Origin: Desulfovibrionaceae bacterium
GTDB lineage: Bacteria; Desulfobacterota; Desulfovibrionia; Desulfovibrionales; Desulfovibrionaceae
Length of the DNA stretch: 47,946 bases
Direction of reading: 5' to 3'
Assembly (NCBI GenBank): GCA_015233395.1
Contig: JADFXV010000015.1
Location: forward strand, 1-47,946
Below, piece by piece: positions 1,128 to 17,687 of the stretch (its first letter is position 1; every line of letters starts with the position of its first letter). The notes below the pieces were generated by a model. That model saw nothing but the letters and a program-made list of their open reading frames with translations. It did not search any database and was not told the origin of the DNA. The translations under genes were made by a program, and so were the position numbers.

Positions 1128-1217
1128 GGAGGGATGGCCGAGCGGTTGAAGGCGGTAGTCTTGAAAACTACTGATGGGGGAACCCATCCGGGGGTTCAAA
1201 TCCCTCTCCCTCCGCCA
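1128..1217 (+). tRNA. tRNA-Ser (anticodon UGA)
   Basis: A 90-base class II tRNA. The acceptor arms GGAGGGA and TCCCTCC are followed by discriminator G and an encoded CCA at 1215-1217. The anticodon stem GTAGT/ACTAC encloses CTTGAAA with anticodon TGA at 1162-1164. A long variable arm (GATGGGGG...CCCATC) and the T-arm GGGGGTTCAAATCCC identify a serine tRNA. It is not tRNA-Sec, whose anticodon would be UCA and whose acceptor stem is longer. Confidence 0.95.
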
Positions 1218-1298
1218 GTTGCGGAGAACAGGCAAAAACATTGAAAAAGCATGCCCCACACGATCGGGCCTGATGGATTCGATCATTGTCCTTGAAGG

Positions 1299-1332
1299 AA
1301 AAAGCCCCGGCCGGTAAGCCGGGGCTTTTTTT
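1299..1332 (+). terminator. Rho-independent terminator, probably bidirectional
   Basis: An 11-bp stem AAAGCCCCGGC / GCCGGGGCTTT with a 6-base loop is followed by a T-run on the plus strand and by TTTTT on the minus strand. It sits after tRNA-Ser and about 50 bases beyond the stop of the kinase gene at 1385, so it can serve both. Confidence 0.85.
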
Positions 1333-1384
1333 ATGGGGGAATAATGGCCGGGACGGTTGTTTCACGGCGTCCTTGAGCGTCTTC

Positions 1385-3658
1385 TCATTTGGCGACCGGA
1401 ATGCGGATGTAAAAGCTCGCCCCCCCGGCGCGGTTGTTCTTGACGTGGATGCTGCCTCCGTAATCCTTGACGATGCCGTAGCTGATGGACAGGCCAAGGC
1501 CCGTGCCCTTGCCGACCTGTTTGGTGGTGAAGAAGGGCTCGAAGATCTTGTCCATATAAGCCGCCTGGATGCCCACGCCGGTGTCGCTGATGACGACCGT
1601 GGCGAACTCGCGGTTATGGGTGGTCTTGATGGTGATGGAATTTTTCTCGTGCTCGCCCGGGGCCTTTACGGTCTTTTCCTCGATGGCGTCGCGGGCGTTG
1701 ATCAAAAAATTGATGAACACCTGCTCCATGCGGTTCTGCTCGCACATGACCAGGGGCAGGTTCTCTTCGAGCTCCCAATGGATATCGATGCCGCGACGGG
1801 TGAACTGCTGGCTGAAAAATTCCAGGGCCCGGCGCAAAACCTCGTTCAAAGCCACTTCCTCCAGGTGCAGTTCCGGTTTGCGGCCGAATTCGCGCATATG
1901 CCCGATGATCTTGACCGCCCGTTCGACCTGGGCGCCGGCCAGTTCGCTGACCCTCTCCAGCAGGCCCTTTTCGGGCGTCTCGCCCCGGGCGAGGCTGCGC
2001 TTGATCAAATCGATGCTGGTTTGGATGACGGCCAGGGGCTGATTGATCTCATGGGCCACGCCAGTGGCCATTTCGCCCAGCGTAGCCATCTTGCTGGCCT
2101 GGATGAGCTGCTGTTCGGTTTCCAGACGCTTGGTGATGTCGCTGGTGGTCACCAGGAAGACCGCTTTGCCCGAGAACTCGGAGGGCGAGGAATTGATGCT
2201 GACGAAGAATTCCCGCCCGTCCCTGGCGACCTGCTTGGCCTGGTTGATGACCGCGCCGGTCTTGATGGCCTGGCTGAAGGCGTCCCAGTTGTCCTCGGCG
2301 AAGAATTCGAGGAAGGATTTGCCCATCAGTTCGTCCTTGGCGTAGCCGTAGACATGGATGGCCGACAGATTGCAGTCCAGGATGGCGAAATCAATGGGGT
2401 CGAGCACGAAGATGGCGCTCGGGATGTTGTTGAAAATGTCGATATATTTGCGCTCGGAACGTTTGAGTTCGCCTTCGAGGTCCTTGCGTTCGGTGATGTC
2501 CAGGCACATTTCCATGGCCGCGACCAGCTTGCCCTTGGAATCGTGGATCGGCGCCGTGGTCACGATCCAGTGGGCGGCCGCGCCGTCCTTGTAGCGTCCG
2601 GTCTCCTCGGTGGTGTGGGACTTTCCGGTTTCGAAGGTCTTGGCCACCGGGCAGGGGTCGCAGGGCTTGTCGCGGTTCTTGTAGGCCTTGTAACAGTGGT
2701 CGCCGACCTTGGCGGCGAAGCGCTCGGCAAAAGCGCGGTTGAAGCGGATCAGGCGGTAGTCGCGGCCTTGGACCGTAACCAGGCAGGGCACGCCCTCGAA
2801 CAGATCGCGGTACAGATTTTTTTGCATGCCGAGCTGCTCGTTCTTGACGATCAGGTCGGTGCCCATCTGATTGATGGCCTTTGAAAGCTGACCGATTTCG
2901 TCGGTGGTCCGCACCGCCTGCTCGCCCGGGCGCTGGCCCCGGGAAAGGATCTTGGCCTGCTCCATGATCCTGTTGATCGGCGTCTTGATGAGCGCGTAAA
3001 TGAGCAGGCACAGAGTCGCAAAGGTGGTGAAAAACAGGATGCAGGCCAGGTAGACGGATTTTTTCTTGAAGCCGGCGATCAACGATTCGGAGTCCGCGAG
3101 CGAAAAGGAGATGTCGAGCAGGCCGAGAACCTTCTCCTCGGCGGAATGGAAATGGCAGTCCGTATTCTGGTGGCAGCTCTCCTCGTTGAAGACCGGACTG
3201 ACCAGACGCAGGACGTGTTCGCCGCCGGCCTGGGCGTCGGAGTAGACCCGCTCGGTTAAGTTCGGCTTGACGCTCGGTTTGGCCAGGCGGTGGCAAACCT
3301 GGCACAGCGGTTCGGCCTGGTCCACGGTCCCGCCGGCCTCGTCGTCGCCGCTGGAAAACATGACCTGGCCTTGCTTGTTCAGCAGCCGGATCGCGCGGAT
3401 TTCGTTCAGCCGCCCGTAGTTGCGGATAATGGCCTTGATGTCGTCGCGCGAGTTGAGCAGCATGGCGTAGTTGAGGCCGAGCTGCACGGTGTTGCCCACC
3501 CGGTCCACCTCGATGATGAGGTTGGTGCGGGCGAAGCGTTCCTGCTCCCCGACATAGAAGTCGGCCCATAGGAAAATGCAGGCGAACAGGACCATTGCCA
3601 CCGGAATGACGATCTTGACGAGCAGACGCGAACGCAGGCTGTCTAAGGTCTTGCCCAT
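1385..3658 (-). CDS. Membrane sensor histidine kinase with periplasmic heme-c motif and two PAS domains
   Basis: 757 residues. Transmembrane segments at about 14-33 and 202-224 bracket a periplasmic domain holding CQVCH (119-123), a canonical c-type heme attachment site, and SCHQNTDCHFH (161-171), a second Cys/His cluster. A HAMP-like linker follows, then a PAS domain (about 283-395) with an unusual HCY-x11-CDPCP cysteine set (321-337), a second PAS (405-515), the H-box GVAHEINQP with H536, and an ATPase domain (SDTGVGI, GTGLGLS). It is the last gene of the SQR operon and starts 4 bases after the preceding kinase stop. A redox or gas ligand sensed by heme is inferred. No DNA-binding output is encoded with it; the lone receiver in the operon is a candidate partner. 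Confidence 0.85.
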   Translation of the reverse strand: MGKTLDSLRSRLLVKIVIPVAMVLFACIFLWADFYVGEQERFARTNLIIEVDRVGNTVQLGLNYAMLLNSRDDIKAIIRNYGRLNEIRAIRLLNKQGQVMFSSGDDEAGGTVDQAEPLCQVCHRLAKPSVKPNLTERVYSDAQAGGEHVLRLVSPVFNEESCHQNTDCHFHSAEEKVLGLLDISFSLADSESLIAGFKKKSVYLACILFFTTFATLCLLIYALIKTPINRIMEQAKILSRGQRPGEQAVRTTDEIGQLSKAINQMGTDLIVKNEQLGMQKNLYRDLFEGVPCLVTVQGRDYRLIRFNRAFAERFAAKVGDHCYKAYKNRDKPCDPCPVAKTFETGKSHTTEETGRYKDGAAAHWIVTTAPIHDSKGKLVAAMEMCLDITERKDLEGELKRSERKYIDIFNNIPSAIFVLDPIDFAILDCNLSAIHVYGYAKDELMGKSFLEFFAEDNWDAFSQAIKTGAVINQAKQVARDGREFFVSINSSPSEFSGKAVFLVTTSDITKRLETEQQLIQASKMATLGEMATGVAHEINQPLAVIQTSIDLIKRSLARGETPEKGLLERVSELAGAQVERAVKIIGHMREFGRKPELHLEEVALNEVLRRALEFFSQQFTRRGIDIHWELEENLPLVMCEQNRMEQVFINFLINARDAIEEKTVKAPGEHEKNSITIKTTHNREFATVVISDTGVGIQAAYMDKIFEPFFTTKQVGKGTGLGLSISYGIVKDYGGSIHVKNNRAGGASFYIRIPVAK

Positions 3659-3662
3659 GGCG

Positions 3663-5591
3663 TCAAACGCCTTGGTTGGGGTTTAAGCGGCGCGGCAGGA
3701 CAACGGCGATGGTCGAGCCAGCCCCGGGCGCGGACTCCACCTCGATGACGCCGCCGTGGCGGCGCACGGCCTGATTGGAGATGAACAGGCCAAGGCCGGT
3801 GCCCTTGGAGCCCTTGGAGGAGAAGAACAGGCTGAACATTTTCTCGCGGGTGTCCTGGTCCATGCCGACGCCGTTGTCCCGGATGGTGAACACGATCGCC
3901 TCGCCCCGAAGGCCGGCGGAAAATACGATTTCATGGGCGGTCTTGGCCCGGTCCTCGGCGCAGGCGTCCACGGAATTTTCCAGGAAATTGACCAGGGCCG
4001 GAGACAGGCTCGCTTCGTCGAGCAAGGCCTCGCCAACGGCGGCGTCGATGCGGGCGACGAAATCCACACCCTTGCCGCGCGCCTTGGGTTCGACAATGGC
4101 GGCCACGTCGGCGGCGAATCTGGCGACGTCCACCGGGGCCAGCTCCGGCTCACGGGACTTGGCGTAGTAGAGAATGTCCAGGACCATTTTCCTGATCCTG
4201 GCGATCTTGTCCGAGACGATGGCCCAGCCTTCGGCGAGCTTGTCCTGGTCTGCGCGCCTAAGCCCCGCGTTGACCTTGAGCACGCCTCCGTCGAGCGCCG
4301 TCAGAAGCCCCTTGACGCCGTGGGACATGCTGCCGAGCATCAGTCCAAGCGAGGCGAGATGGTCCTGGAGGGCGCGGATCTCGGTGATGTCGGCGGCGAT
4401 TTCCAAAACCTGTTCGATTCCGCCGGATTCGCCGAAAATCGGGGCGGTCTGGATGAGCACGTTGAGCTGGACGCCCTCGCGGGTGGTCACCACGGTTTCC
4501 AGCCTGCGCGGCGTTCCGTCGGCCAGGGTGGCTTCGGCCGGGCAATGTTCGCAGGGTTCGCCGCGATGGGCGAAGAGTTCATGGCAGCGCGCGCTCCTGG
4601 GTTCGCCGAAATCGGCCCGGTAGCGGCGGTTGGCCTCGACCAGGTTCAGATCGCGGTCGAGCACCGAGATATAGCTCGGCACGGCGTCGAACAGGCGCTG
4701 GTATTTCTCCCTGACCGCGCGCAGTTCCTCCTGGATGCGGTTGACCTCGGTGACGTCGACGGAAATCTCGATGATCAACTCCACCTCGCGCTTCTGGTTG
4801 AAGATCGGGGCGGTATGCACGATCACCGGGATGGCCTGGCCGGCCCTGCCTAGGAGCACCTCGTTGCTGCGCTGGCCCTTGCCTTCGCCGATGGTCTTGA
4901 CCACCGGGCAGGCGTTGCTGCTCGCCTCGTGGCCCTGGTAGGCCTCCCAGGAATTACGGCCGACCATGTCGCCCAGGCGGTCCCGGTGCAGTTGGTTGGC
5001 GGCCACGATCTCCAGATAGCGGTTGTGCACGGCGATGAAGCAGGGCAGTTCGTTGAAATAGCTCGGTCCCTCGTCGAAGGAGGAGACCAGGGTGCGCATG
5101 ACCGCGCCCAGGCCTTCGACCACCTGGCCCACGGCGATCTGGCGTTCGAGCTCGACCAGCTTGGCCGACTTTTCCTTGACGATGCGCTCCAGGTTTTCGG
5201 TATGCTCGCGGATCTGGCGGCGCATGCCGATGCGCTCCGTCGCGCGTTTGAGCGCGTTGATCAAAAGCTCCTCGCGCACCGGCTTGGTGATGAAATCAAG
5301 CGCCCCGTGCTGCAGGCTTTTGATGGCCAGGTCCATGTCGCCGTGGCCGGAGATCATGACGACTTCGACGTCCGGGTGTTTTTCCTTGAGCCGGCGCAAC
5401 AGCTCCACGCCGTCCATGACCGGCATCTTGATGTCCGTGAGCACGATGCCCGGCGTGTTCGCCTCGAAGACGGCCAGGGCCGCCTCGCCGTTTGCGGCGG
5501 TGAGGACCGGGTAGCCGAGGTCGGCCAGGGACAGGCTCATGATCTCCCGGATGGCCTCTTCGTCGTCGACCAGCAGCACTGTTTCTTTCAT
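3663..5591 (-). CDS. Hybrid receiver-PAS-PAS-histidine kinase
   Basis: 642 residues, cytoplasmic. Receiver domain 1-120 with phosphorylatable D53 (LTDIKMP) and KP at 103-104; a coiled coil at about 125-160; PAS at about 175-285 with one CPVV; PAS at about 295-405 with C336 and CEHCP (347-351), the same cysteine layout as in the neighbouring membrane kinase. The dimerisation segment has the divergent H-box SMSHGVKG (H424). The ATPase domain follows (N-box NFLENSVDA, DNGVGM, GTGLGLF). The receiver at the N-terminus suggests phosphotransfer from another kinase. It lies between the lone receiver (79-base gap with a hairpin) and the heme kinase (4-base gap). Confidence 0.85.
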   Translation of the reverse strand: MKETVLLVDDEEAIREIMSLSLADLGYPVLTAANGEAALAVFEANTPGIVLTDIKMPVMDGVELLRRLKEKHPDVEVVMISGHGDMDLAIKSLQHGALDFITKPVREELLINALKRATERIGMRRQIREHTENLERIVKEKSAKLVELERQIAVGQVVEGLGAVMRTLVSSFDEGPSYFNELPCFIAVHNRYLEIVAANQLHRDRLGDMVGRNSWEAYQGHEASSNACPVVKTIGEGKGQRSNEVLLGRAGQAIPVIVHTAPIFNQKREVELIIEISVDVTEVNRIQEELRAVREKYQRLFDAVPSYISVLDRDLNLVEANRRYRADFGEPRSARCHELFAHRGEPCEHCPAEATLADGTPRRLETVVTTREGVQLNVLIQTAPIFGESGGIEQVLEIAADITEIRALQDHLASLGLMLGSMSHGVKGLLTALDGGVLKVNAGLRRADQDKLAEGWAIVSDKIARIRKMVLDILYYAKSREPELAPVDVARFAADVAAIVEPKARGKGVDFVARIDAAVGEALLDEASLSPALVNFLENSVDACAEDRAKTAHEIVFSAGLRGEAIVFTIRDNGVGMDQDTREKMFSLFFSSKGSKGTGLGLFISNQAVRRHGGVIEVESAPGAGSTIAVVLPRRLNPNQGV

Positions 5592-5625
5592 GTGCGTTCC
5601 CCGCGTCCCGGCCAGGGCGGCAAAG

Positions 5626-5655
5626 GCCGGGGGGAGGCGGGACGCTCCCCCCGGC
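5626..5655 (-). other. Intra-operon GC hairpin
   Basis: A perfect 11-bp stem, GCCGGGGGGAG / CTCCCCCCGGC, with an 8-base loop sits in the 79-base gap between the receiver gene and the hybrid kinase. There is no U-tract. It could reduce read-through or stabilise the upstream message; this is inference. Confidence 0.5.
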
Positions 5656-5670
5656 GCGGCGTATCGGACG

Positions 5671-6027
5671 TTATTCGGCGAGCATTTCCTTGATCAGGCG
5701 CAGAGTCTTTTCCGGATCGATGGGCTTGCTGAGCACCGGCACGTTCTTGGTCAGCACCGGGGGCCTGGGGCCCACGCCGCTGATCACGATCACCGGTATC
5801 TCGGCCAGTTCCGGCTCCTTGCGCAATTTGACGTAGAACTGGGTGCCGCCCCGGTTGGGCATGTCCATGTCGAGGGTGATCAGGTCCGGCTTGTGGACCT
5901 GGCACTGGGTGATGCCCTCCACGCCGTCGCCGGCGGTGAAGGCCGTATACCCGGCCTCTTCGAACACGTCCTTGAAATAGCTCAGTATTTCCGGGTCGTC
6001 GTCGATGATGAGTATCTTTTTCGACAT
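5671..6027 (-). CDS. Stand-alone response regulator receiver
   Basis: 118 residues, a single receiver domain without output. The acidic pair D10/D11, phospho-acceptor D53 (ITLDMDMP), S84 (VISG) and lysine K101 (SKP) are present. The ATG is preceded by AGAGGAC. It lies 30 bases after the DUF1641 gene and upstream of the hybrid kinase, so it is likely a phosphorelay intermediate or a protein-interaction switch acting with the two kinases of the operon. Confidence 0.85.
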   Translation of the reverse strand: MSKKILIIDDDPEILSYFKDVFEEAGYTAFTAGDGVEGITQCQVHKPDLITLDMDMPNRGGTQFYVKLRKEPELAEIPVIVISGVGPRPPVLTKNVPVLSKPIDPEKTLRLIKEMLAE

Positions 6028-6057
6028 AATGTCCTCTCTTTGGTCTTGGATTGTTCG

Positions 6058-6708
6058 CTAGCCTCTGAGTCCGCCCAAAGCCTTGGTCAATTCCATGGCC
6101 ACGCCGAGACCTTCCTTGAACTTCGGATCGCTCATGGCCGAGAGCATGCCCAAAGCTCCGACCGGCTTGGCCTTGGACAGGTCCACCGCGGCGGGCAAAT
6201 CCATGAGCTTGTCGAGCAGGGCCATGAATTCCGGATTGGCCATCTTCTTGAGCAAGCCGACGAGGTGGACGAAGGTGTCGCCCATGGCCTCGATGTCGGC
6301 CGCGCCGTAGTTCGCGGCCATCTTGGCGCGCACGTCGAGCATAGCCTCGTAGGTGCGGAAGACGCCCTTTTGTTCGAGCGCGCCCAGTTTGAAGATCAGG
6401 TTATGCACCATGGACTTGGCCATGGGTTCGACGGTGTCCCACAGCTCCAGGCCGTTTTCGAGCATGTCCAGGGCCTCGGCCAGGTTCTTCATGTTGCGCA
6501 AAAAGCGCTTGACGAGCAAAAAGACGTCATCCAACTGGAAGCCGGATTCGATCTTGCCCAGCTCCTTGAGCAGGAGTTGGAAGCCGCTTTTGAGCAGGGG
6601 ATTGAAATCGTCGACAAGCTCGTTCCAAGTCTCCCTGACCGTGCGGACTTCCGCCAACTCGGCTTCGATTCTGCCGAGTTTTTCCAATATGAGTTCCTCG
6701 TTGGTCAT
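6058..6708 (-). CDS. DUF1641 protein, SQR partner
   Basis: 216 residues, mostly helical, rich in Leu, Lys and Glu, with no catalytic motif. The C-terminal part (VGALGMLSAMSDPKFKEGLGV) is the conserved core of DUF1641, a family often encoded beside sulfide:quinone or formate oxidoreductases. GGGGAGGCG precedes the ATG at 6708, and the gene follows sqr by 11 bases, so the two are almost certainly co-translated. The molecular function is unknown; an accessory or tethering role for the quinone enzyme is inferred from context. Confidence 0.75.
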   Translation of the reverse strand: MTNEELILEKLGRIEAELAEVRTVRETWNELVDDFNPLLKSGFQLLLKELGKIESGFQLDDVFLLVKRFLRNMKNLAEALDMLENGLELWDTVEPMAKSMVHNLIFKLGALEQKGVFRTYEAMLDVRAKMAANYGAADIEAMGDTFVHLVGLLKKMANPEFMALLDKLMDLPAAVDLSKAKPVGALGMLSAMSDPKFKEGLGVAMELTKALGGLRG

Positions 6709-6719
6709 CGTCGCCTCCC

Positions 6720-7961
6720 CTAGATGCTGCAAGCGCCCATGCGTCTCTTTCCGGCCATGAACATCTGGGGCTCCAGGGGCAGCTCCTTGCCTTTGAGCAT
6801 GAGGTTGAAATAAACCCACTTGAACATCATCTTGCCCACGTAGTTGCCGAAGCTTTCTTCGAGCAGCATGAGCGGCCCCAGGCCCGGGAAGGGGTATTTG
6901 CCCGGCAGCGGCTCGATCTTGTAATTGAAATCGATGAGCACGGCCTTTTCGTAGCCAGAGACGATAAAGCAGGTGGAATGGCCGTCGAAATCGGGCAGCG
7001 GCTCCAGGCCCTCGATGTCGCGCAGCAGGTTCTCGACCACGATGTCGCTCTGGTAGTGGGCCACGCTGCCGGCCTTGGAGGTCGGCACGTTGGTGGCGTC
7101 GCCGATGACGTACATGTTCTCGTATTGCTTGGACTTGAGCGTGTGGTGGTCGGTGTCGAGATAGCACATGGCGTCGCCGATCTCGCTGTCCTCGATGACC
7201 TTGGCGCCGAAGTTCGGCGGAATGGTCACGAACAGGTCGTAATCGACCTCCTCGCCCTTGTGCGACTCGATGGTCTTCTTGTCCGCGTTGACCTGGGCGA
7301 TCTCGAAGTTGGGCGTGATCTTGATGTTCTTCTCGTCGCACATCTTACCCAATATCTCGGCTGACACCGGCTTTGTGAACGCTCCGGCCAGCGGCGTGAC
7401 CAGTTCGACCTCCACGTTGCAGCGGCTGTCGTTGATCATGAAGAACCAGTCGGCCAGAAAGACGAATTCCAACGGCGCGACCGGGCACTTGATGGGCATT
7501 TCGGCGATGTTGAGCACCACCTTGCCTTTGTTGAAGCGCTTGAGCTTTTTGGCCAGGGCGATCGCCCCGTCCGGGGTGTAGAAAGTGTGGACGTTGCCCT
7601 TCCAGTCGTCCATCATGCCATCGATTTCCTCGGGCACGATGCGACAGCCCGTGGCCACCACGATCCAGTCGTAGTCGTACTTGCCGTTTGCGCAGGTGAC
7701 CACCTTGCCCACGGGATCGATGTTCGTGATTTCGTCCTGGACGAAATCCACGCCCCGAGGCGTGAAGTCGGCCTGGGGTTTGACGCAGTCCTTGATGTCG
7801 TAGACGCCAAACGGCACGAACAGCCAGCCGGCCTGGTAGTGGTGTTGCCATGAGCGGTCGATGACCGTGATCTGCCATTGCTTTTCTTCGAGTTTCTTGC
7901 GGATCTTGGTGGCCACCATGACGCCGCCTGCCCCGGAACCCAGAATCAGAAGCTTTTTCAT
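6720..7961 (-). CDS. sqr: Sulfide:quinone oxidoreductase-type flavoprotein
   Basis: 413 residues. The N-terminal FAD-binding motif is GSGAGG (8-13) and the second nucleotide motif is YVIGDATNVP (284-293). Cysteines C159 (IKCPVAP) and C331 (STCFIVSGYEKA) are at the positions of the redox-active pair in SQR enzymes. C-terminal helices 360-413 are amphipathic, as in the membrane-attached family. Expected reaction: oxidation of sulfide to polysulfide with quinone reduction at the cytoplasmic membrane. It is first in an operon with DUF1641 and three signalling genes, behind a sigma-54-type promoter. In a sulfidogen it may serve sulfide detoxification, redox balance or polysulfide turnover. A related flavoprotein with another substrate cannot be excluded. 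Confidence 0.8.
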   Translation of the reverse strand: MKKLLILGSGAGGVMVATKIRKKLEEKQWQITVIDRSWQHHYQAGWLFVPFGVYDIKDCVKPQADFTPRGVDFVQDEITNIDPVGKVVTCANGKYDYDWIVVATGCRIVPEEIDGMMDDWKGNVHTFYTPDGAIALAKKLKRFNKGKVVLNIAEMPIKCPVAPLEFVFLADWFFMINDSRCNVEVELVTPLAGAFTKPVSAEILGKMCDEKNIKITPNFEIAQVNADKKTIESHKGEEVDYDLFVTIPPNFGAKVIEDSEIGDAMCYLDTDHHTLKSKQYENMYVIGDATNVPTSKAGSVAHYQSDIVVENLLRDIEGLEPLPDFDGHSTCFIVSGYEKAVLIDFNYKIEPLPGKYPFPGLGPLMLLEESFGNYVGKMMFKWVYFNLMLKGKELPLEPQMFMAGKRRMGACSI

Positions 7962-8056
7962 GCCCGGTTTACTCCCTGTTCGCTGGTTTATTCCTGGTCG
8001 CTGCCCTTCGCCCGGCTCGCGCGCGCCGGGCGCCTAAAATCATACCGTTTTGGTAG

Positions 8057-8072
8057 AGCAAGAGCCGGGCCA
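8057..8072 (-). promoter_or_regulatory. Predicted sigma-54 (-24/-12) promoter of the sqr operon
   Basis: On the minus strand the sequence TGGCCC-GGCTC-TTGCT matches TGGCAC-N5-TTGCW with one mismatch, including the invariant GG and GC at the correct spacing. The predicted transcription start is near 8046, giving an 85-base leader to the sqr ATG at 7961. A GAFTGA-containing activator is encoded just upstream. Confidence 0.65.
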
Positions 8073-8144
8073 GCGGTGCCATGGCAAATAAAAACTATCA
8101 TTTCAGTATATTGGCGCATCTCGGGGATTGCAGGCTGAGCCGGG

Positions 8145-8160
8145 TGCAACCTTGGTTGCG
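8145..8160. promoter_or_regulatory. Palindromic activator site 1 (TGCAACCTTGGTTGCG)
   Basis: Perfect GCAACC / GGTTGC arms separated by TT. The same 16-mer with one change occurs at 8290-8305. The centre is about 106 bp upstream of the predicted sigma-54 start, a normal enhancer distance. Binding by the adjacent NtrC-type protein is inferred. Confidence 0.6.
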
Positions 8161-8271
8161 GCGCTGCGGCGCCTGCGCGCCCGCAGCGAATCGCAAATCA
8201 CAGGCAGTGGGCGGGGAAATCCTCGCGCGGCGCTCATTTTCGCATTTCTTCCCGGCAGGCGATGGGGCGAT

Positions 8272-8287
8272 GTCAACAGACGTTGAC
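8272..8287. promoter_or_regulatory. Inverted repeat GTCAAC-AGAC-GTTGAC
   Basis: Perfect 6-bp arms with a 4-base spacer lie immediately beside palindromic site 2, separated by 2 bases. It differs in sequence from the two TGCAACC sites and may bind a second regulator. Function is unknown. Confidence 0.35.
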
Positions 8288-8289
8288 GC

Positions 8290-8305
8290 TGCAACCCTGG
8301 TTGCG
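8290..8305. promoter_or_regulatory. Palindromic activator site 2 (TGCAACCCTGGTTGCG)
   Basis: Perfect GCAACC / GGTTGC arms separated by CT; differs from site 1 only in the first spacer base. It lies about 250 bp upstream of the predicted sigma-54 start and 42 bp from the stop codon of the activator gene. Confidence 0.6.
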
Positions 8306-8346
8306 CGAAAGCGAGGATTGCGCGGGGTGGGCGGTTTGTTCGAAGA

Positions 8347-9759
8347 TCAGGCCGTCGGCTCGCGCTTGCGGGTCAGGAGGCGCTTGTTCAGGGCCTGGCG
8401 GGAGATGCCGAGAATACGCGCGGCCTCGCTCTGCTTGCCGCCCGCTTGCTCCAAGGCCCGGAGGATGAGTTCTTCCTCGGCCTGGCGCAGGGTGGGCAGG
8501 GGGCAACACGGACCGTCGGCCCGGTCCCGGACGCCCGCCTGGCCCGTCTGGTCCACCGGGCCGGTCGCGCGGGTCCAGGCGCGAAACACGTCCGCGTCAA
8601 GCCGCTGCGGTCCGGACCTGGCCACGGCGTCGAAGATCATGGCGCGCAGTTCCCGGACATTGCCCGGAAAGTCGTAGGCCGAAAGAAGCGCCGCCACGTC
8701 GCCCGGCACGGCGGTGAAAGGTTTGCCGAACTTGGCCGAGGCCTTGGCGAGGTAATGTTCGCTTAAGGGGGCGACGTCGGCCGGGCGTTCGCGCAGGCTG
8801 GGCAAGTGGATGTGGTGGGTGCGCAGGCGGTAGAAAAGATCGCTGCGGAAACGGGCCGGATCGAGCAGCTCTTCCAGGGACCGGTTGGTGGCCGCAATCA
8901 CCCGGGCGTCGGTCGTTCTGCACTCGTCCGCGCCCACGGGAAAGTATTCGCGCTCTTCCAGCAGGCGCAGGAGCTTAAGCTGGGAGGCGTGGCTTAAATC
9001 CCCGATCTCGTCCAAAAAAAGGCTCCCGCCCTCGGCCTTGCCGATAAGCCCCTCGCGCCGGGCCTCCGCGCCGGTGAAGGCCCCTTTGCGGTGGCCGAAC
9101 AGGCTGTCGGCGAAGACCGCGTCGTCCAGGCCGGCGGCGTTGACGGCCACAAACGGCGTCCGCCCGCGCGAGACGTGGTGGATGGCCTGGGCGGCCATTT
9201 CCTTGCCCACGCCGGTCTCCCCGGTGATCAGGACCGGCTCGCGACTGGCGGCGATGGCGGCGATATAGCGGCAGACCTCGCTCATCTGTTCGCTGGCGTG
9301 GACGATGTGCACGAAAGCCCCGGGCACGGCCGCGTTTTCCGCGGTGCCGGCCTGGGCAAGGCGCAGGTAGCCCCGGTGCAGCGCCAAGGCCGAGGTCACG
9401 GCCTGCATGAACCGGGGCGGGTCCACCGGTTTGACCAAGTAGTCCGCAGCCCCGGCGCGCATGCAGCGCACGGCCGTCTCCACCTCGTTTTCTCCGGTGA
9501 CCACGATCACCGGGGCGTCCGGCCGGGCGGACCGGATGAGCGCGAGCAGTTCCTCGCCGCCCAGATGCGGCATGCATAGATCGAGCACGGCCAGGCTGAT
9601 GTCGTTGGTTTTGACGAATGCGGCGGCCTTGCGCGGGTCCTGGCAGCGCACGGCATTGGGGTGGCCGCCGTAGCGCAGAGTAAGTTCGTAGCTTTGCAGG
9701 GCCTGCTCTTCGTCGTCCACGAGCAGAATCGGGGCGTCGGCGCCGGAAACGGTTGGCAT
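8347..9759 (-). CDS. Sigma-54-dependent response regulator (NtrC family)
   Basis: 470 residues. Receiver 10-125 with phospho-acceptor D60 (LAVLDLCMP). AAA+ domain about 150-385: Walker A GETGVGKE (180-187), the sigma-54-contacting GAFTGA loop (226-231), Walker B SLFLDEIG (246-253) and a sensor arginine region. The C-terminal Fis-type helix-turn-helix is at 437-461 (SEAARILGISRQALNKR). It lies 13 bases after its cognate PAS kinase. Because the next gene is sqr, behind a sigma-54-like promoter with two matching palindromes, this protein is the best candidate for its activator. The signal and any wider regulon are unknown. Confidence 0.92.
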   Translation of the reverse strand: MPTVSGADAPILLVDDEEQALQSYELTLRYGGHPNAVRCQDPRKAAAFVKTNDISLAVLDLCMPHLGGEELLALIRSARPDAPVIVVTGENEVETAVRCMRAGAADYLVKPVDPPRFMQAVTSALALHRGYLRLAQAGTAENAAVPGAFVHIVHASEQMSEVCRYIAAIAASREPVLITGETGVGKEMAAQAIHHVSRGRTPFVAVNAAGLDDAVFADSLFGHRKGAFTGAEARREGLIGKAEGGSLFLDEIGDLSHASQLKLLRLLEEREYFPVGADECRTTDARVIAATNRSLEELLDPARFRSDLFYRLRTHHIHLPSLRERPADVAPLSEHYLAKASAKFGKPFTAVPGDVAALLSAYDFPGNVRELRAMIFDAVARSGPQRLDADVFRAWTRATGPVDQTGQAGVRDRADGPCCPLPTLRQAEEELILRALEQAGGKQSEAARILGISRQALNKRLLTRKREPTA

Positions 9760-9772
9760 GCGTCCTCGCTCC

Positions 9773-11392
9773 CTAGCGCGCCGCCGGCAGGACGATCCTG
9801 GCCCGGGTTCCCTGGCCCGGGGTCGAATCGAACTCCAGCCTGCCGCCGTGATCCTTGAGAATTTTCAGCGAGATGGGCAGTCCGAGTCCGGTGCCCCCCT
9901 TTCTCGCCCGGGTGGAAAAAAACGGCTCCGCGACCCGGGGCATGTCCTCGGGCCGGATGCCCACTCCCTCGTCGCGCACGGTGATCCGCACGGAGTCGCT
10001 TGACCGGTCGTGGTCGGTCACGATCTCGATGGCCTGGGATGGATTTTCCAGGGCCAGGCAGGCGTTCTGGATGAGGTTTAAGATCACCTGCTCCAGACGC
10101 TGGGCCACGCCCTTGACCATGGGCAGGTTTTCGCCGCGGCGCACGCTCAGATGATTGGTGTGGGTCCGGATGGTCTTGCCCAGGAGCAGGACCGCCGAAG
10201 CCACGATCTCGTCCACCGCGACCAAGGTAAGGCTGCCGCCGTCGGCGAGTCTCGCGTACTGCTTCAGCTCGCCGACGATATTCTTGATGCGCGCGGCGCC
10301 CTCGGCAATGCCGCCGAGCAGCCCGCGCACATCGGCGTCCATCTGCTCCAGGCTCGCGCCGCCCAGTCCATCCGGTCCGTCCGCTCCGCCCGCCGCCCGC
10401 CGCAGGACCGGCAGGGCCTTGTCCCAGATGGCCGCGAGCAGCGGGGCGTTGAGCATGATAAAATTGTTGGGGTTGTTCACCTCGTGGGCCACCCCCGAGA
10501 CCAGGGTGCCAAGCGAAACCAGGCGGCCTGCCTGAAACACCCGCTCCTCGGCGATCTTGTGTTCCGAGATGTCCACGCCCACGCCTTGATAGTCCTTGAT
10601 GTGGCCGGTGCGGTAGAAAAACCCTCGGAAGGTCCACTTGATCCACAGCGTCCCGCCGTCCGGCCAGGCCAGGCGTTGCTCCATGTGCGCCGCCGGGGCG
10701 GACGGCGTGACCGCGTCCAGCGCGCTCACGAGCCGGACGCGGTCTTCGGGCCGGATCAGATCCAGGAAATTGCGCCCCACGACTTCGCGCCGGGTGCGGC
10801 CGAAGCATTTGCAAAATGAGGCGTTGGCGTAAAGCAGGCTCAGGTCCGGCAGAAATCGGCACAGCGGGTCGGAGCGCAGTTCCACGAACCCCCGGTAGAG
10901 CTTGTGACGGTTCACCAGTTGCTCGACGCGCTCCCGGTAGCGGGTGACGTCGTCCACGACCAGGCGCAGACAGGGCTCGCCGCCGGGAAGCGAAGTCCGG
11001 GAGAGGTGGGTCCGGCACCAGGAGAAGGAACCATCGGTCCGCTCCAGGTATTTTTCGACGCCCTGGAATTTGGCGTTTACATCCTCGGCCCCGTCGCCGT
11101 CTTCGTCCCGCGAGGCCGGCGAAACCGGAAGGAGCGGGCGCACGGGCGCGACGCGGGCAGCCGGAGCGTCCAGGCGAAACAGGGCCGAGGCTTCGGGAAA
11201 GCGCAGCCTGGCGGGATTGACGCCCGCGCCGGCGACGATGGAGCAAAAGGCTTTATTGGCGTAGAGCAATCCGCCGCCAAGGCGAAACAGGGCCAAGCCC
11301 ACGGGCAGGTCCTCGTAGACCTCGGCCAAGACGTCCGGCAAATCTTCCCGAGCCGCATCCCTCGCCAGACTGCGTGCGCCGGCCTGATTCAT
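9773..11392 (-). CDS. Cytoplasmic PAS sensor histidine kinase, partner of the sigma-54 regulator
   Basis: 539 residues from the chosen ATG at 11392, which has AGAGG 9 bases upstream; an in-frame ATG at 11440 would add 16 residues but has no ribosome site. No membrane segments. Two PAS domains, the second at about 170-280 with TLWIKWTFRGFF, are followed by the H-box VSGVAHEVNNPNN (H303), a dimerisation helix with an Ala/Gly-rich insertion, and an ATPase domain (NLIQNA, DEGVGI, GGTGLGLP). The VNNPNN flavour of the H-box and the NtrC-type neighbour suggest an NtrB-like pair responding to an internal redox or metabolic cue. Confidence 0.88.
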   Translation of the reverse strand: MNQAGARSLARDAAREDLPDVLAEVYEDLPVGLALFRLGGGLLYANKAFCSIVAGAGVNPARLRFPEASALFRLDAPAARVAPVRPLLPVSPASRDEDGDGAEDVNAKFQGVEKYLERTDGSFSWCRTHLSRTSLPGGEPCLRLVVDDVTRYRERVEQLVNRHKLYRGFVELRSDPLCRFLPDLSLLYANASFCKCFGRTRREVVGRNFLDLIRPEDRVRLVSALDAVTPSAPAAHMEQRLAWPDGGTLWIKWTFRGFFYRTGHIKDYQGVGVDISEHKIAEERVFQAGRLVSLGTLVSGVAHEVNNPNNFIMLNAPLLAAIWDKALPVLRRAAGGADGPDGLGGASLEQMDADVRGLLGGIAEGAARIKNIVGELKQYARLADGGSLTLVAVDEIVASAVLLLGKTIRTHTNHLSVRRGENLPMVKGVAQRLEQVILNLIQNACLALENPSQAIEIVTDHDRSSDSVRITVRDEGVGIRPEDMPRVAEPFFSTRARKGGTGLGLPISLKILKDHGGRLEFDSTPGQGTRARIVLPAAR

Positions 11393-11596
11393 GGCGGTTC
11401 GCCTCTTTCCGTTCGTCTGGTCCGTCACGGGCATACCCATCGTTGGACTCGGCTTGTCTTACGAACTGCGCCGCCGCCACGGCCGCGCAATCAATATTCG
11501 CCTCCGGAGCGAGGACTTTCCCCGAACCGTCGAACAGGGGTAAATCATACCTTTCCGGGGTGAATTAAATCTATACCGATGCGCCCTGATTTGCAA

Positions 11597-12381: not shown

Positions 12382-12996
<615 letters not shown>

Positions 12997-13018
12997 AAGT
13001 CCTGCCTCCTCTCGGTCT

Positions 13019-13049
13019 GCTGAAAAACGCCGTCCCGGCGTTTTTCAGC
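13019..13049 (-). terminator. Terminator-like hairpin between ureF and ureG
   Basis: A perfect 14-bp stem, GCTGAAAAACGCCG / CGGCGTTTTTCAGC, with a 3-base loop. The A5/T5 runs lie within the stem, so it could terminate or attenuate transcription into ureG, or protect the message end. Partial termination would lower UreG relative to the other subunits; this is inference. Confidence 0.5.
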
Positions 13050-13066
13050 TTGGCTTCAACACTCCG

Positions 13067-13759
13067 TCAGGACCTGAACAACCGCGTTTCAAGGGTTTCG
13101 TGCAGGGCCGAGGCCATGGCCTGGCCGGGCGCAAGCGAGCCGATGTCCTCGTCGGCCAGGGCCGCGCCGCAAGCGACCGCGTCCGGGATGAGCCCGCCGG
13201 CCTCATGCAGGATGCGTTGTCCGGCGCTCTGGCCCAGGCAGCCGAGCTTGAGCGCGGCGGCGAGCTGGTTTTCCGCCCAGGAGAAGAGGTATCCAGCGCA
13301 GGCGTCGCAGGAGCGAATCTCCCACCGCGCGGCGGCCAGGGCGAACAGGCAGGCGAAGGTGGCGCGCGGGTCGCTCCGGAAGGCTTCGGCCTCGGCCATG
13401 CCCAGGCCGGCGAGCAGCTTGGCCAGGGCCTGGCCGGTCTGGCGGTCTTCCAGGCGGGCCTCGTGCGTTTCGCGCGAGGCGTAGAGAAAGTCGTTCCAGG
13501 CGGCCGCCTTGGCCGTATCGCCCGAGGCGAAGGCGGCGTGCAGCCGGCACAGGACCGGGGCGTCCAGGCGGGAGAGCGAGCGGTCCAAAAGTCCCAATAT
13601 CCAGTCCCGGACAGCGGCGGCGTCAGGCGTGAGCCCCGCGGCCGCGACCCATTCCAGACCCCGGGAATAGGCAAAGGCCCCGACCGGCAAGGCCGGGCTG
13701 GAGAGGTGCAGCAGGCGCGTCAGGGCCAAAGACCCGGTTAATGCCGGTGCGCGCCGCAT
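13067..13759 (-). CDS. ureF: Urease accessory protein UreF
   Basis: 230 residues, all-helical. The conserved N-terminal motif LLHLSSPALPVGAFAYSRGLE (about 15-35) is the family signature. UreF bridges UreD and UreG in the nickel-insertion complex. The start overlaps the end of ureE by 22 bases, indicating translational coupling. Confidence 0.92.
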   Translation of the reverse strand: MRRAPALTGSLALTRLLHLSSPALPVGAFAYSRGLEWVAAAGLTPDAAAVRDWILGLLDRSLSRLDAPVLCRLHAAFASGDTAKAAAWNDFLYASRETHEARLEDRQTGQALAKLLAGLGMAEAEAFRSDPRATFACLFALAAARWEIRSCDACAGYLFSWAENQLAAALKLGCLGQSAGQRILHEAGGLIPDAVACGAALADEDIGSLAPGQAMASALHETLETRLFRS

Positions 13760-14166
13760 TCCGGCTCAAAGGCCGCGCTCACGGCCGCGACGGCGTGGCC
13801 CAGCTCCGCGACCATGGCGTCGATCACCGGGCCGGCCGGGTAGAATACCCGCTCGCCCTCGATCTGCACGGGGTGATGGCGGTTGCCGAGATGATAGCAC
13901 AGCCTGGCCAGGGCGGCCGGGTCCGGGCAGAGCACGTACGACAGGCGTTCGGCCTCGGCCCGGACCACGACGCGTTCTCCGCCCTCGGCCTCAAGGACGT
14001 CGCCCTGGCGCAGCACCGTGCCGCGCGGCAGATGCAGCGCGGCTTCGCGGCCGTCGTCCAGGCGAACCTTCTGGCGGCTCTTGCGCCGCTCCTCGAAGCC
14101 GAGCGTCAGCCCGCAGGCCTGTTCGTCCGTGGCGCACTGTTCGCAGCGCCTGACAATTTTCAGCAT
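13738..14166 (-). CDS. ureE: Urease accessory protein UreE (nickel chaperone)
   Basis: 142 residues from the ATG at 14166. The N-terminal domain (RRKSRQKVRLDDGREAALHL) and the C-terminal metal-binding domain (LCYHLGNRHHPVQI with the conserved GNRH at about 94-97) are as in UreE. It ends with a short His tail (ECGAHRH) rather than the long His-rich tail of some homologues. GAGG lies very close to the start. A Cys-rich N-terminal stretch (RRCEQCATDEQAC) is unusual and could add metal ligands. Confidence 0.9.
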   Translation of the reverse strand: MLKIVRRCEQCATDEQACGLTLGFEERRKSRQKVRLDDGREAALHLPRGTVLRQGDVLEAEGGERVVVRAEAERLSYVLCPDPAALARLCYHLGNRHHPVQIEGERVFYPAGPVIDAMVAELGHAVAAVSAAFEPECGAHRH

Positions 14167-14237
14167 ATCCTCACTGCATCCTTCCCCCTTCCTGGGATTC
14201 CAAAGTGGCCGCCGGAGGTCTAAATACCCCCGGTCTC

Positions 14238-15927
<1,690 letters not shown>

Positions 15928-15941
<14 letters not shown>

Positions 15942-16257
15942 GGCCCGTTCTCTCCAGCTTGCCCATGATTTTGCCCTGGAAACCGTATACCGCGCGCAGG
16001 CCCCGGTACGGCGCCAGTTCCACCTCGCGCTTTTGTCCCGGCTCAAAGCGCATCGAACTGCCGGCCGGGATGTTCAGCCGCATGCCGAGCGCTACGTCGC
16101 GATCGAAAACCAGAGCCTGGTTGGTCTCGTAAAAATGATAATGGGAACCGACCTGGATGGGCCGGTCGCCCGAGTTGGCCACGTTGACCGTCACCGGCGT
16201 CAGACCGGCGTTGAGCTCGATTTCGCCCTCGGCGAGAAACAATTCTCCGGGTATCAT
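15928..16257 (-). CDS. ureB: Urease beta subunit UreB
   Basis: 109 residues. Contains the family core [17 protein letters not shown] and RFEPGQ(K)REVELAPY. Structural subunit assembling with UreA and UreC. It starts at the ATG at 16257, 38 bases after ureA, with AGGAGGAT upstream, and overlaps ureC at its 3' end. Confidence 0.95.
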
Positions 16258-16295
16258 GACGCGATCCTCCTGGCGTAATGCCCTGGCGTATGGGC

Positions 16296-16598
16296 CTAGC
16301 GTATGGGATGATGCACCGTGACCAGCTTCGTGCCGTCCGGAAAAGTGGCTTCGACCTGCACCTCGCCGATCATCTCGGGCACGCCCTCCATCACGTCGGC
16401 CCGGGTGAGCAGGCCCGCTCCGCGGCTCATCAGCTCGGCCACGCCCATGCCGTCGCGCGCGCCTTCCATGATGGCGCAGGAAATAAAGGCCACGGCTTCG
16501 GGATAGTTGAGCTTGAGCCCGCGCGCCTTGCGGCGCTCGGCCACAAGTCCGGCGGTGAACAGCAACAGTTTGTCTTTCTCGCGCGGCGTAAGTTTCAT
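16296..16598 (-). CDS. ureA: Urease gamma subunit UreA
   Basis: 100 residues, standard length. Begins [17 protein letters not shown] and has the conserved LNYPEAVA and TVHHPI C-terminus of the gamma subunit. It is separated from ureD by 210 bases of GC palindromes, the only long gap in this urease operon. Confidence 0.95.
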
Positions 16599-16808
16599 GG
16601 CGGCTCCTTGCCTGCGAAAGCCAAAGGAGCGTCGCCCCTTTGGATTCTCCGCCGGGGGGCATGATGTCCCCCGGCCCCCGCGACGGGGCTGTTTGTTGGT
16701 CAACACGAGACCATTTTTCAAAACGGCCGGCAATGCGAAAATCAGTACCCCCGTTTTTTTCAAGAGGGCTGCCGCCCTCGGCCCCCGCCTCTCTCATCCC
16801 CTTGCCCC
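16599..16808. repeat. Palindromic spacer between ureD and ureA
   Basis: Two palindromes lie here. One is CCAAAGGAGC/GCCCCTTTGG (16621-16643), a member of the CCAAAGGGGC family also seen at 26106, 27588 and 35536. The other is GCCGGGGG/CCCCCGGC (16651-16675). The rest is GC-rich with no coding potential. It looks like an inserted dispersed repeat inside the operon. Confidence 0.65.
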
Positions 16809-17687
16809 TCAAGTCGCCCAGATGCGGGGCGGGTGGGCGAGGCGGCCCAGGGTCAGGGGGCGCAAGGCCCGCCAGGCGGCGATAAAGGCTTTTTTGGCCG
16901 CGGCCGAGTCGCGGCCGTGCAGGCGGCAGACGAGCAGGCCGTCGCACAGGCAGGCCGCGACGAGGTTGTCCCGGGTAAAGGGGGAGACAGCCTCGCGGGC
17001 GGCGGCGAGCGCGGCCTGGCGGAATGGTTCCGGCCCGCCCGGCGCACCCAGGGTGCAAACGAACGTCGCGGCCACGGTGTGGCCGGACAGGCCCCAGGGG
17101 GCGATCAGGCTTCGGTCGCCGGCGCGGCAGCGGAGGTTTTCGATCAGAAGCGGCCGCGCGTCTTGCCAAATCTCCAAGCGTTGGCGGAACTCGCCGTGGA
17201 CAAAGGGTTTGTTGGACGCCGCAAGTCCCAGGCAGATGATTTCCCAACCGAAAAAGCACGCCCCGGGCGTGAGTTCGACGCGGGTGGCCAGGGCGGCGAC
17301 GGCGCCGTCGTAGACGATGGTTTCCTGGGGCAGCCATTCCAGGCTCGCTCCCGCGCCCACGCGGAAATGCTGGTCCACGCGCGCCGGCTCTCCCGCGCTG
17401 CGGTAGAATTTTCCGGCCGCCGGGGTGGTGGCCAGGGCCTTTGCGCACGGCCCGAGGTCGAGGCCGACGGCCAGCTCGTCGCCGCCGCAGACGCCTCCCG
17501 GCGGGTGGACGAGGTAGATATGGGCCAGGTCCGCGCCTTCGGGGTAGAAGGGTTTTTGCACCACCAGGGGGCCGGCGTGCTCGTTTTTGGCGAGCACGGC
17601 GCGCTGTCCGTCGGCGCGCAAGCCCAGTTCGATCCGGGCGCGCCACCCGCCCCCGGGGGTCTGTTGCATCGCGGTTGCCTGGTTCAT
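16809..17687 (-). CDS. ureD: Urease accessory protein UreD
   Basis: 292 residues. Family motifs include the QKPFYPEG and [12 protein letters not shown] stretches, [11 protein letters not shown], and [10 protein letters not shown] with its conserved tryptophan-glutamate. UreD (UreH) is the scaffold that binds apo-urease and channels nickel from UreG through UreF. It sits between the urea transporter (urtE start at 18397, stop at 17702) and ureA and is 14 bases from urtE, so transporter and urease are one transcription unit at least up to here. Confidence 0.92.

Follow-up and report, generated by a model that had tools for sequence, protein, structure and literature searches.

It is unclear, to our knowledge, why sulfate-reducing lineages keep a sulfide:quinone reductase (SQR), and little is known on the regulation of their quinone-linked complexes. 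Both questions are raised by a stretch of 47,946 nt from a Desulfovibrionaceae bacterium (assembly GCA_015233395.1, contig JADFXV010000015.1; the window in the following), in which an SQR gene is followed on the minus strand (7961-1385) by the genes of a DUF1641 protein, a lone receiver, a receiver-PAS-PAS-kinase (the second kinase) and a membrane kinase: what does a signalling set do behind this enzyme? The answer favoured here, with a probability of about 0.6, is that of a menaquinone-linked sulfide-oxidation operon with an attached redox two-component cassette of the Hmc/Tmc kind. SQR would oxidise sulfide and DUF1641 would help to pass the electrons to menaquinone; the membrane kinase would read the redox (or ligand) state of the periplasmic or quinone electron pool by means of one or two covalent hemes and a Cys-rich PAS domain, and it would phosphorylate two receivers, the lone one and that of the second kinase. 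This second kinase, given its unusual H-box, would be a cytoplasmic redox-tuned partner or a phosphate sink, while the lone receiver would act by protein contact. Transcription would be switched separately in this lineage, with a further kinase (9773-11440) phosphorylating an activator (8347-9759) that would bind palindromes at 8145-8304 and drive a sigma-54 promoter at 8057-8073. The novelty lies in the setting and in the sensor variant; the Hmc/Tmc-type redox signalling set itself is already known. The literature search returned no paper with "DVU0259", the family nearest to the lone receiver, and none with both "DUF1641" and "sulfide quinone".

The five-gene operon and its conservation

The first gene (6720-7961), present in a single copy in the 3.37 Mb source genome, encodes a type III SQR on the basis of NCBIfam, Pfam and the alignment with SQOR: it has 665.9 bits against the NCBIfam type III SQR model NF049943, a selenoprotein subtype with a cut-off of 525, it contains the Pfam domain Pyr_redox_2 plus a weak match to flavocytochrome-c sulfide dehydrogenase, and it matches mitochondrial SQOR with an E value of about 1e-50. 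Residues C159 (7485-7487) and C331 (6969-6971) align with SQOR cysteines that we take to be redox-active, and they are invariant in 18 of 18 aligned sequences; on this sequence evidence, the protein probably oxidises sulfide. Its score exceeds the cut-off of NF049943, but codon 331 is TGC (Cys) where the selenoproteins of that model have TGA, so that the selenocysteine of the subtype is missing. Regarding this subtype, a selenoprotein SQR type is already listed in PMC13188914, and the SQR genes of the phylum-mates G291, G333, G312, G195 and G101 (loci L170-L175) have one in-frame TGA each, a probable selenocysteine, found at the C331 position in the two genes examined in sequence.

As for the second gene (6058-6708), its product is a ForE-like DUF1641 protein (PF07849, 36.9 bits, cut-off 21). 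It lies directly downstream of SQR in all 30 loci fetched by SQR, 19 from the phylum sample and 11 from the same family; it also follows SQR in the source operon and in 17 other loci, but these were fetched through DUF1641 itself. The only characterised DUF1641 proteins found in the literature search are ForE1 and ForE2 of B. subtilis. According to PMC8808070, each acts as a partner subunit of a formate dehydrogenase; menadione reduction requires ForE1, and so, most likely, does menaquinone binding, and ForE mediates the use of menaquinone by the formate dehydrogenase. Because of this precedent, DUF1641 is likely the quinone-coupling partner of SQR: as in the ForCE formate dehydrogenase of that source, a catalytic gene stands beside a DUF1641 gene, with menaquinone as the acceptor (presumed here), but the enzyme of the window is a flavin SQR instead of a molybdenum enzyme, and its quinone coupling is drawn from the analogy. 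The AlphaFold model of the DUF1641 protein is weak, with a predicted template modelling score of 0.28.

The gaps in the set measure 11, 30, 79 and 4 bp, going from the SQR end to the membrane-kinase end, and the Pfam domains are, in the same order, Pyr_redox_2; DUF1641; Response_reg; Response_reg, two PAS and HATPase; HAMP, two PAS, HisKA and HATPase. Coordinates and domains bear out the initial annotation of the locus, which had described five same-strand genes in this order with gaps of 4-79 bases. On the 3' side of the membrane kinase, the last gene, there is a terminator-like hairpin with a T-run on the minus strand (1299-1328), read by eye and absent from the list of the automated scan; beyond it, a tRNA-Ser gene (1128-1217) lies on the plus strand, opposite to the operon.

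The initial annotation had staked its proposal on the conservation of the gene order in relatives, and the order is kept across 10 genera. An SQR profile run over 288 same-family genomes found the enzyme at 75 places in 69 genomes, and at 28 of the 75, in these 10 genera, the membrane kinase follows 3,065-3,753 bp downstream on the same strand. The linkage comparison took in 35 membrane-kinase places, with at most three candidates scored per genome, and weaker kinases may be missed; the remaining kinase places in SQR-bearing genomes are all on a different contig from any unlinked SQR or more than 100 kb away from it. A DUF1641 query gave matches in 17 of 59 same-family genomes, the source genome included, and nine of the 19 stretches around these matches have all five genes in order, and a tenth is truncated by the end of its contig. 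Linkage is also seen in G557, where the contig likewise breaks off, and G054 is consistent but split between contigs. G454 and G455, where SQR sits close to the end of its contig and a different contig carries a strong membrane kinase, were not counted as linked; the second kinase was not found in the ∼1.0-1.3 kb remaining before the contig end. The five-gene set is a real, conserved operon, with a gene order that is more than chance.

Shorter versions also exist. Genus g21 (L040, L194-L196) has SQR-DUF1641-receiver-kinase, genus g38 (L035, L193, L197, L198) has SQR-DUF1641-receiver, and still other SQR loci that were read have the SQR-DUF1641 pair alone. In the phylum sample, SQR occurs at E ≤ 1e-60 in 24 of 297 genomes; 19 of the 27 SQR places were read, the four most distant ones (212-233 bits) being left out, and none of the 19 has the full module, while one has a receiver and a kinase ∼4 kb away and another has a receiver after DUF1641. 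It should be noted that a few loci are duplicates, their genome being listed under two names. In the source genome the module has no close paralogues, the next receiver having 72 bits and the next second-kinase match 119 bits, and only one membrane kinase is found at E ≤ 1e-130. G014 carries, in addition to its full operon and ∼70 kb from it on the other strand, a second copy of the three signalling genes (receiver, second kinase and membrane kinase; L041, 9449-14489), which score identically and lie behind a DUF1641 fragment, with no SQR.

A signalling set shared with Hmc- and Tmc-type operons

The relatives of the signalling set were sought by scanning named genomes with the second kinase; of the 80 loci kept, L042-L069 were analysed, whereas L070-L121, weak or receiver-only matches mostly from Bacteroidetes, were left out. 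Among the matches listed, there are SQR-linked copies plus copies behind non-SQR redox operons, which encode a multiheme cytochrome, ferredoxin, NrfD, a Fer4-CCG protein and a universal stress protein; some related operons presumably deserve the label Tmc. The Pfam domains of one such operon agree with the description of the Hmc complex in PMC10924467, where rrf1 and rrf2 are also stated to be regulators of hmc expression. Six of nine sampled membrane kinases away from SQR stand with Hmc/Tmc-type genes, two are near a universal stress protein gene, and one has neither.

The trees, quick ones with a single support measure, were built from rows of >300 bits and >450 aa for the second kinase, >500 bits and >600 aa for the membrane kinase, and >60 bits and <310 aa for the receiver. 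In the membrane-kinase tree (28 rows), all 16 SQR-linked rows fall on one side of one branch (SH-aLRT 99), and in the receiver tree (64 rows) one group (SH-aLRT 99) holds 29 of the 31 SQR-linked rows and one contig-end row; the second-kinase tree (55 rows) is less clean, with long branches and with four changes required for the SQR label, where shuffles require 18.6. By homology, the SQR-linked signalling set is a paralogue of the set found at Hmc/Tmc-type electron-transfer operons, and it is not unique to SQR. Two loci, L180 (G139) and L189 (G524), have SQR-DUF1641 with Hmc-type receivers and kinases nearby; their receivers fall among the Hmc-type ones, which suggests an independent recruitment of the Hmc-type set to SQR.

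Compared with the Hmc operon of Desulfovibrio (hmcA-F, rrf1, rrf2), the operon of the window is likewise a redox-enzyme operon with a lone receiver, and the Hmc/Tmc loci of relatives also have the receiver-PAS-kinase and the homologous membrane kinase. All three homologous proteins are present here, but outside an Hmc/Tmc operon: the enzyme is SQR-DUF1641, the set of this lineage includes neither a universal stress protein nor an Rrf2 gene, and the SQR-linked proteins form their own branches. The source genome does have an HmcF gene (840 bits), whose contig ends 55 bp after the match. Because the module is paralogous to the Hmc/Tmc set, a signal specific for sulfide or polysulfide, which the initial annotation had named next to the quinone state, is not implied; the module may equally well, or more probably, read the redox state of the periplasm or of the quinones in general.

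The lone receiver (5671-6027) has intact key residues, the phospho-acceptor Asp included, with D53 (5869-5871), S83 and K101 present, and it is near the DVU0259 family NF045717, although it reaches 128.8 bits against a cut-off of 160; DVU0259 is the only NCBIfam family matched by the receivers at E ≤ 1e-20, in 13 of 13 aligned, and the Hmc-linked receiver of L061 has 185.1 bits with the same model.

Regarding the membrane kinase (1385-3658), it consists of a periplasmic Cache-type sensor, HAMP, two PAS domains, HisKA (H536) and HATPase. Its sensor has two candidate heme sites: a CxxCH at residues 119-123 (3290-3304), present in 24 of 25 aligned sequences, and C162-x5-C168-H169 (3152-3175), which aligns with the heme CxxCH of the Geobacter sensors 3b42/3b47 and is kept as CX3-5CH in 25 of 25 periplasmic domains, both counts including its own sequence. 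The sole loss of CxxCH is in the SQR-linked membrane kinase of L199 (10284-12605, G525), which has CX4CH, a heme motif of cytochrome c3. With a profile built from the 25 periplasmic domains, the heme-c sensors 3b42 (E 3.6e-5) and 3b47 (E 5.6e-4) are recovered, the single matched segments having modest values (i-Evalue 0.0079 and 0.061, respectively). By contrast with this sequence profile, the fold search, which gave mainly Cache (WalK, Z 14.3, root-mean-square deviation 2.0, 137 residues) and PAS/LOV structures, did not have the Geobacter heme sensors among the 50 matches listed.

In the sensor model (predicted local distance difference test 82.7), residues 160-164 would form a short helix before the last strand. 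This is the place of the heme in the sCache_heme domains as given in PMC12889525, a preprint in which 99% of these domains have CXXCH. The sensor resembles the sCache_heme sensors of that source (DUF3365/Tll0287; GSU0582, GSU0935) in its Cache-type periplasmic domain, in the motif before the last strand and in its homology with GSU0935/GSU0582, but it differs in having CX3-5CH instead of CXXCH at the heme site, an extra CxxCH, and no match to PF11845, which is not among the 18 Pfam families matched by the 25 sensors at E ≤ 0.1; PF21563 is matched by 22 of the 25, with 20.5 bits for the sensor of the window, below the cut-off of 27. Altogether, the membrane kinase is a good candidate for a two-site heme sensor. 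The CxxCH that the initial annotation had named as the heme site is indeed there, but the site with a structural precedent is the CX5CH one. The first cytoplasmic PAS domain has four Cys (292, 322, 333, 336; 2651-2785) that are invariant in 25 of 25 aligned sequences.

The second kinase (3663-5591) has an unusual H-box, with H424 followed by Gly (SHGVKG) and with no acidic residue after the His; general knowledge of HisKA domains suggests that the lack of this residue weakens autophosphorylation. The Gly is found in 12 of 12 aligned sequences, and a motif search gave the SHG form in 46 of 55, with no match in nine; Pfam listed no HisKA match at E ≤ 0.1 for this protein, while the membrane kinase has one. 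Its second PAS domain keeps three Cys (C336, C347, C350) in 12 of 12 aligned sequences. The claim that the module combines putative heme- and cysteine-based sensors and lacks a DNA-binding domain stands.

The possible target of the lone receiver

In four of the 64 tree receivers (L035, L193, L197 and L198), the phospho-acceptor Asp is changed to Glu and D10 to Asn, while the other 60 keep Asp at both positions. These four are exactly the loci of genus g38, where the receiver is beside SQR-DUF1641 with no adjacent kinase; they are near-identical and count as one event. Glu can mimic phospho-Asp, and the g38 receiver is a possible natural phospho-mimic. The pattern fits the kinases and the receiver being partners, and it also fits a receiver that would still act on the enzyme, with Glu standing in for phospho-Asp; it hints at a direct action of the receiver on the enzyme, and it gives some support to the alternative, put forward in the initial annotation, that the signalling set acts through protein contacts.

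Taken further, the same evidence leads to the best-surviving rival of the overall reading, namely that the lone receiver would directly control the activity or the membrane docking of SQR/DUF1641 at the post-translational level, with the kinases dedicated to it. The receiver is third in the operon, before a hairpin at 5626-5655, it is retained across different promoters, it is kept beside SQR-DUF1641 in g38 where no kinase is adjacent, and there the loss of the kinases goes with that of the phospho-acceptor Asp. However, the four g38 copies amount to a single event, and homologous receivers adjoin quite different enzymes (Hmc, Tmc), so that an interface specific for SQR would not be implied; the proposal is best held as tentative.

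A broader and somewhat more doubtful version is that a single portable cassette for redox control serves several quinone-linked enzymes of Desulfobacterota (Hmc, Tmc, SQR), with the receiver acting directly on the enzyme and with interchangeable transcription factors. Its parts would be the di-heme Cache kinase (CX3-5CH plus CxxCH), the receiver-PAS-PAS protein with the SHGVKG H-box, and the lone receiver, which, once phosphorylated, would act on the enzyme or its quinone-coupling subunit and put the electron flow under post-translational control. Transcription would be left to a sigma-54 activator here and to factors of the Rrf2 type elsewhere, and the genus without adjacent kinases (g38) would carry a receiver locked on by Glu. 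The conserved layout predicts that SQR, Hmc and Tmc share such a cassette, and further a quinone coupling by DUF1641, an unusual sensor with two heme sites, sigma-54 control at a defined site, and a receiver with a natural Asp-to-Glu change.

Transcriptional control and neighbouring genes

In the overall reading, transcription of the operon is a separate matter from the signalling set. A sigma-54 promoter-like site (8057-8073, minus strand), which lies 112 bp before SQR, agrees with the consensus at 12 of 13 positions; its score was not reached in 300 shuffles, and a pattern written to fit this very site occurs once in the window against 0.02 expected. Sites scoring 10-12 at -93 to -117 are found in 16 of 32 module loci (genera g1, g9, g10, g15, g25), with 0 to 21 of 300 shuffles per locus reaching the site score, and there is none in the other 16 nor in the 27 SQR loci lacking the full set; L050, with only 117 bp upstream, and L176, with no start found, were skipped in this count. 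A scan of 1150-8400 for a sigma-70 promoter before SQR gave one sigma-70-like site, which lies inside SQR, against 1.3 expected, and this candidate was rejected.

Three palindromes on the minus strand (8145-8159, 8272-8287 and 8290-8304), found by pattern search, are candidate activator sites. Palindromes of the GTCAAC/GTTGAC type occur upstream in 12 of the 16 promoter-positive module loci, in none of the 16 promoter-negative ones, and in one of 28 other SQR loci; with a relaxed pattern there are three places in the genome, one of them before SQR. Next to them, the gene at 8347-9759 (minus strand) has the Pfam domains of an NtrC-type sigma-54 activator (receiver, sigma-54 AAA+ and the Fis-type helix-turn-helix HTH_8), which, along with the -24/-12 site and the upstream palindromes, is the combination expected of this class, and a PAS histidine kinase (9773-11440, minus strand) adjoins the activator in 12 of 12 loci, its own included. 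Across 25 genomes, which do not comprise G454 and G455 although both are among the 16 promoter-positive loci, an activator counterpart of at least 415 bits is present in 13 of 14 promoter-positive and in 0 of 11 promoter-negative genomes (Fisher 2.7e-6), this line, like the palindrome patterns, having been drawn after seeing the data. Of these 13 activator genes, six adjoin SQR, five follow the module and two are found at other places; that of G014 has 415.9 bits, little above the 406 reached by other copies, but is adjacent to SQR. Several promoter-negative lineages have an Rrf2-type gene, recognised with phmmer, just upstream of SQR (L029, L030, L193-L198, L220-L224).

The initial annotation had offered the sigma-54 pair as a possible output of the module, and a fuller form of this idea is a phosphorelay that would run from the membrane kinase through the receivers to the activator, feeding back on the operon. 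The activator gene lies directly before SQR in six genomes, in five more it follows the module at a distance of up to ∼13 kb, and palindromes precede the operon; yet the activator has its own kinase beside it in all 12 loci, the full module occurs without the promoter and the activator in 11 of 25 genomes, and several promoter-negative lineages have the Rrf2-type gene before SQR instead. Such a phosphorelay is unlikely. Because promoter and activator co-occur, the activator has its own kinase, and the module is kept without them, the sigma-54 pair most likely acts upstream of the operon, driving its promoter, and its role as the module output is not supported.

As for the unity of the transcript, a strong GC hairpin on the minus strand in the gap between the lone receiver and the second kinase (5626-5655) is a possible partial terminator or processing site. 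Its stem beats 100 of 100 shuffles, and strong stems occur there in 8 of 16 loci tested (7 of 15 others), against 2 of 13 in the DUF1641-receiver gap and 0 of 7 in the kinase-kinase gap; the whole 79-bp gap folds no better than shuffles (z -0.48). The hairpin recurs with a different sequence in other genera, and in the window it may lower the expression of the kinases relative to that of the enzyme. A reading in which the kinase genes are transcribed separately from the enzyme genes, as neighbours by chance, has this hairpin in half of the loci in its favour but is unlikely, since the order and the spacing of 3.1-3.8 kb are constant over 10 genera, the scan found no T-tailed coding-strand hairpin in the 79-bp gap of the operon itself, and paralogous cassettes also accompany other redox operons.

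Several points weigh against the reading of a sulfide-oxidation operon with an attached redox cassette. The membrane kinase is not adjacent at 47 of the 75 SQR places, and therefore the enzyme does not need the module; the hairpin just described could separate the kinases from the enzyme transcript; and the lone receiver stays below the DVU0259 cut-off. In the sensor, the CX5CH spacing is non-canonical for heme, a departure from sCache_heme, and the segment match to 3b42 is modest. On the side of transcription, the association of promoter and activator is confined to five genera and confounded by shared descent, the 415-bit line and the palindrome patterns were set late, the same genomes also have related activators of 345-406 bits, G555 has the promoter with no activator above 393 bits, and three g25 promoter sites are individually weak, their scores being reached by 10-21 of 300 shuffles.

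Finally, two other regions of the window, both on the minus strand, deserve mention. A formate dehydrogenase-like gene, from 31073 to about 34100, has a signal of the twin-arginine translocation (Tat) type and one in-frame TGA (33524-33526), which makes it a probable selenoprotein; it is not part of the SQR finding. A urease region (12382-17646) has a urease beta-subunit domain by Pfam, with nearby accessory genes recognised by eye only.

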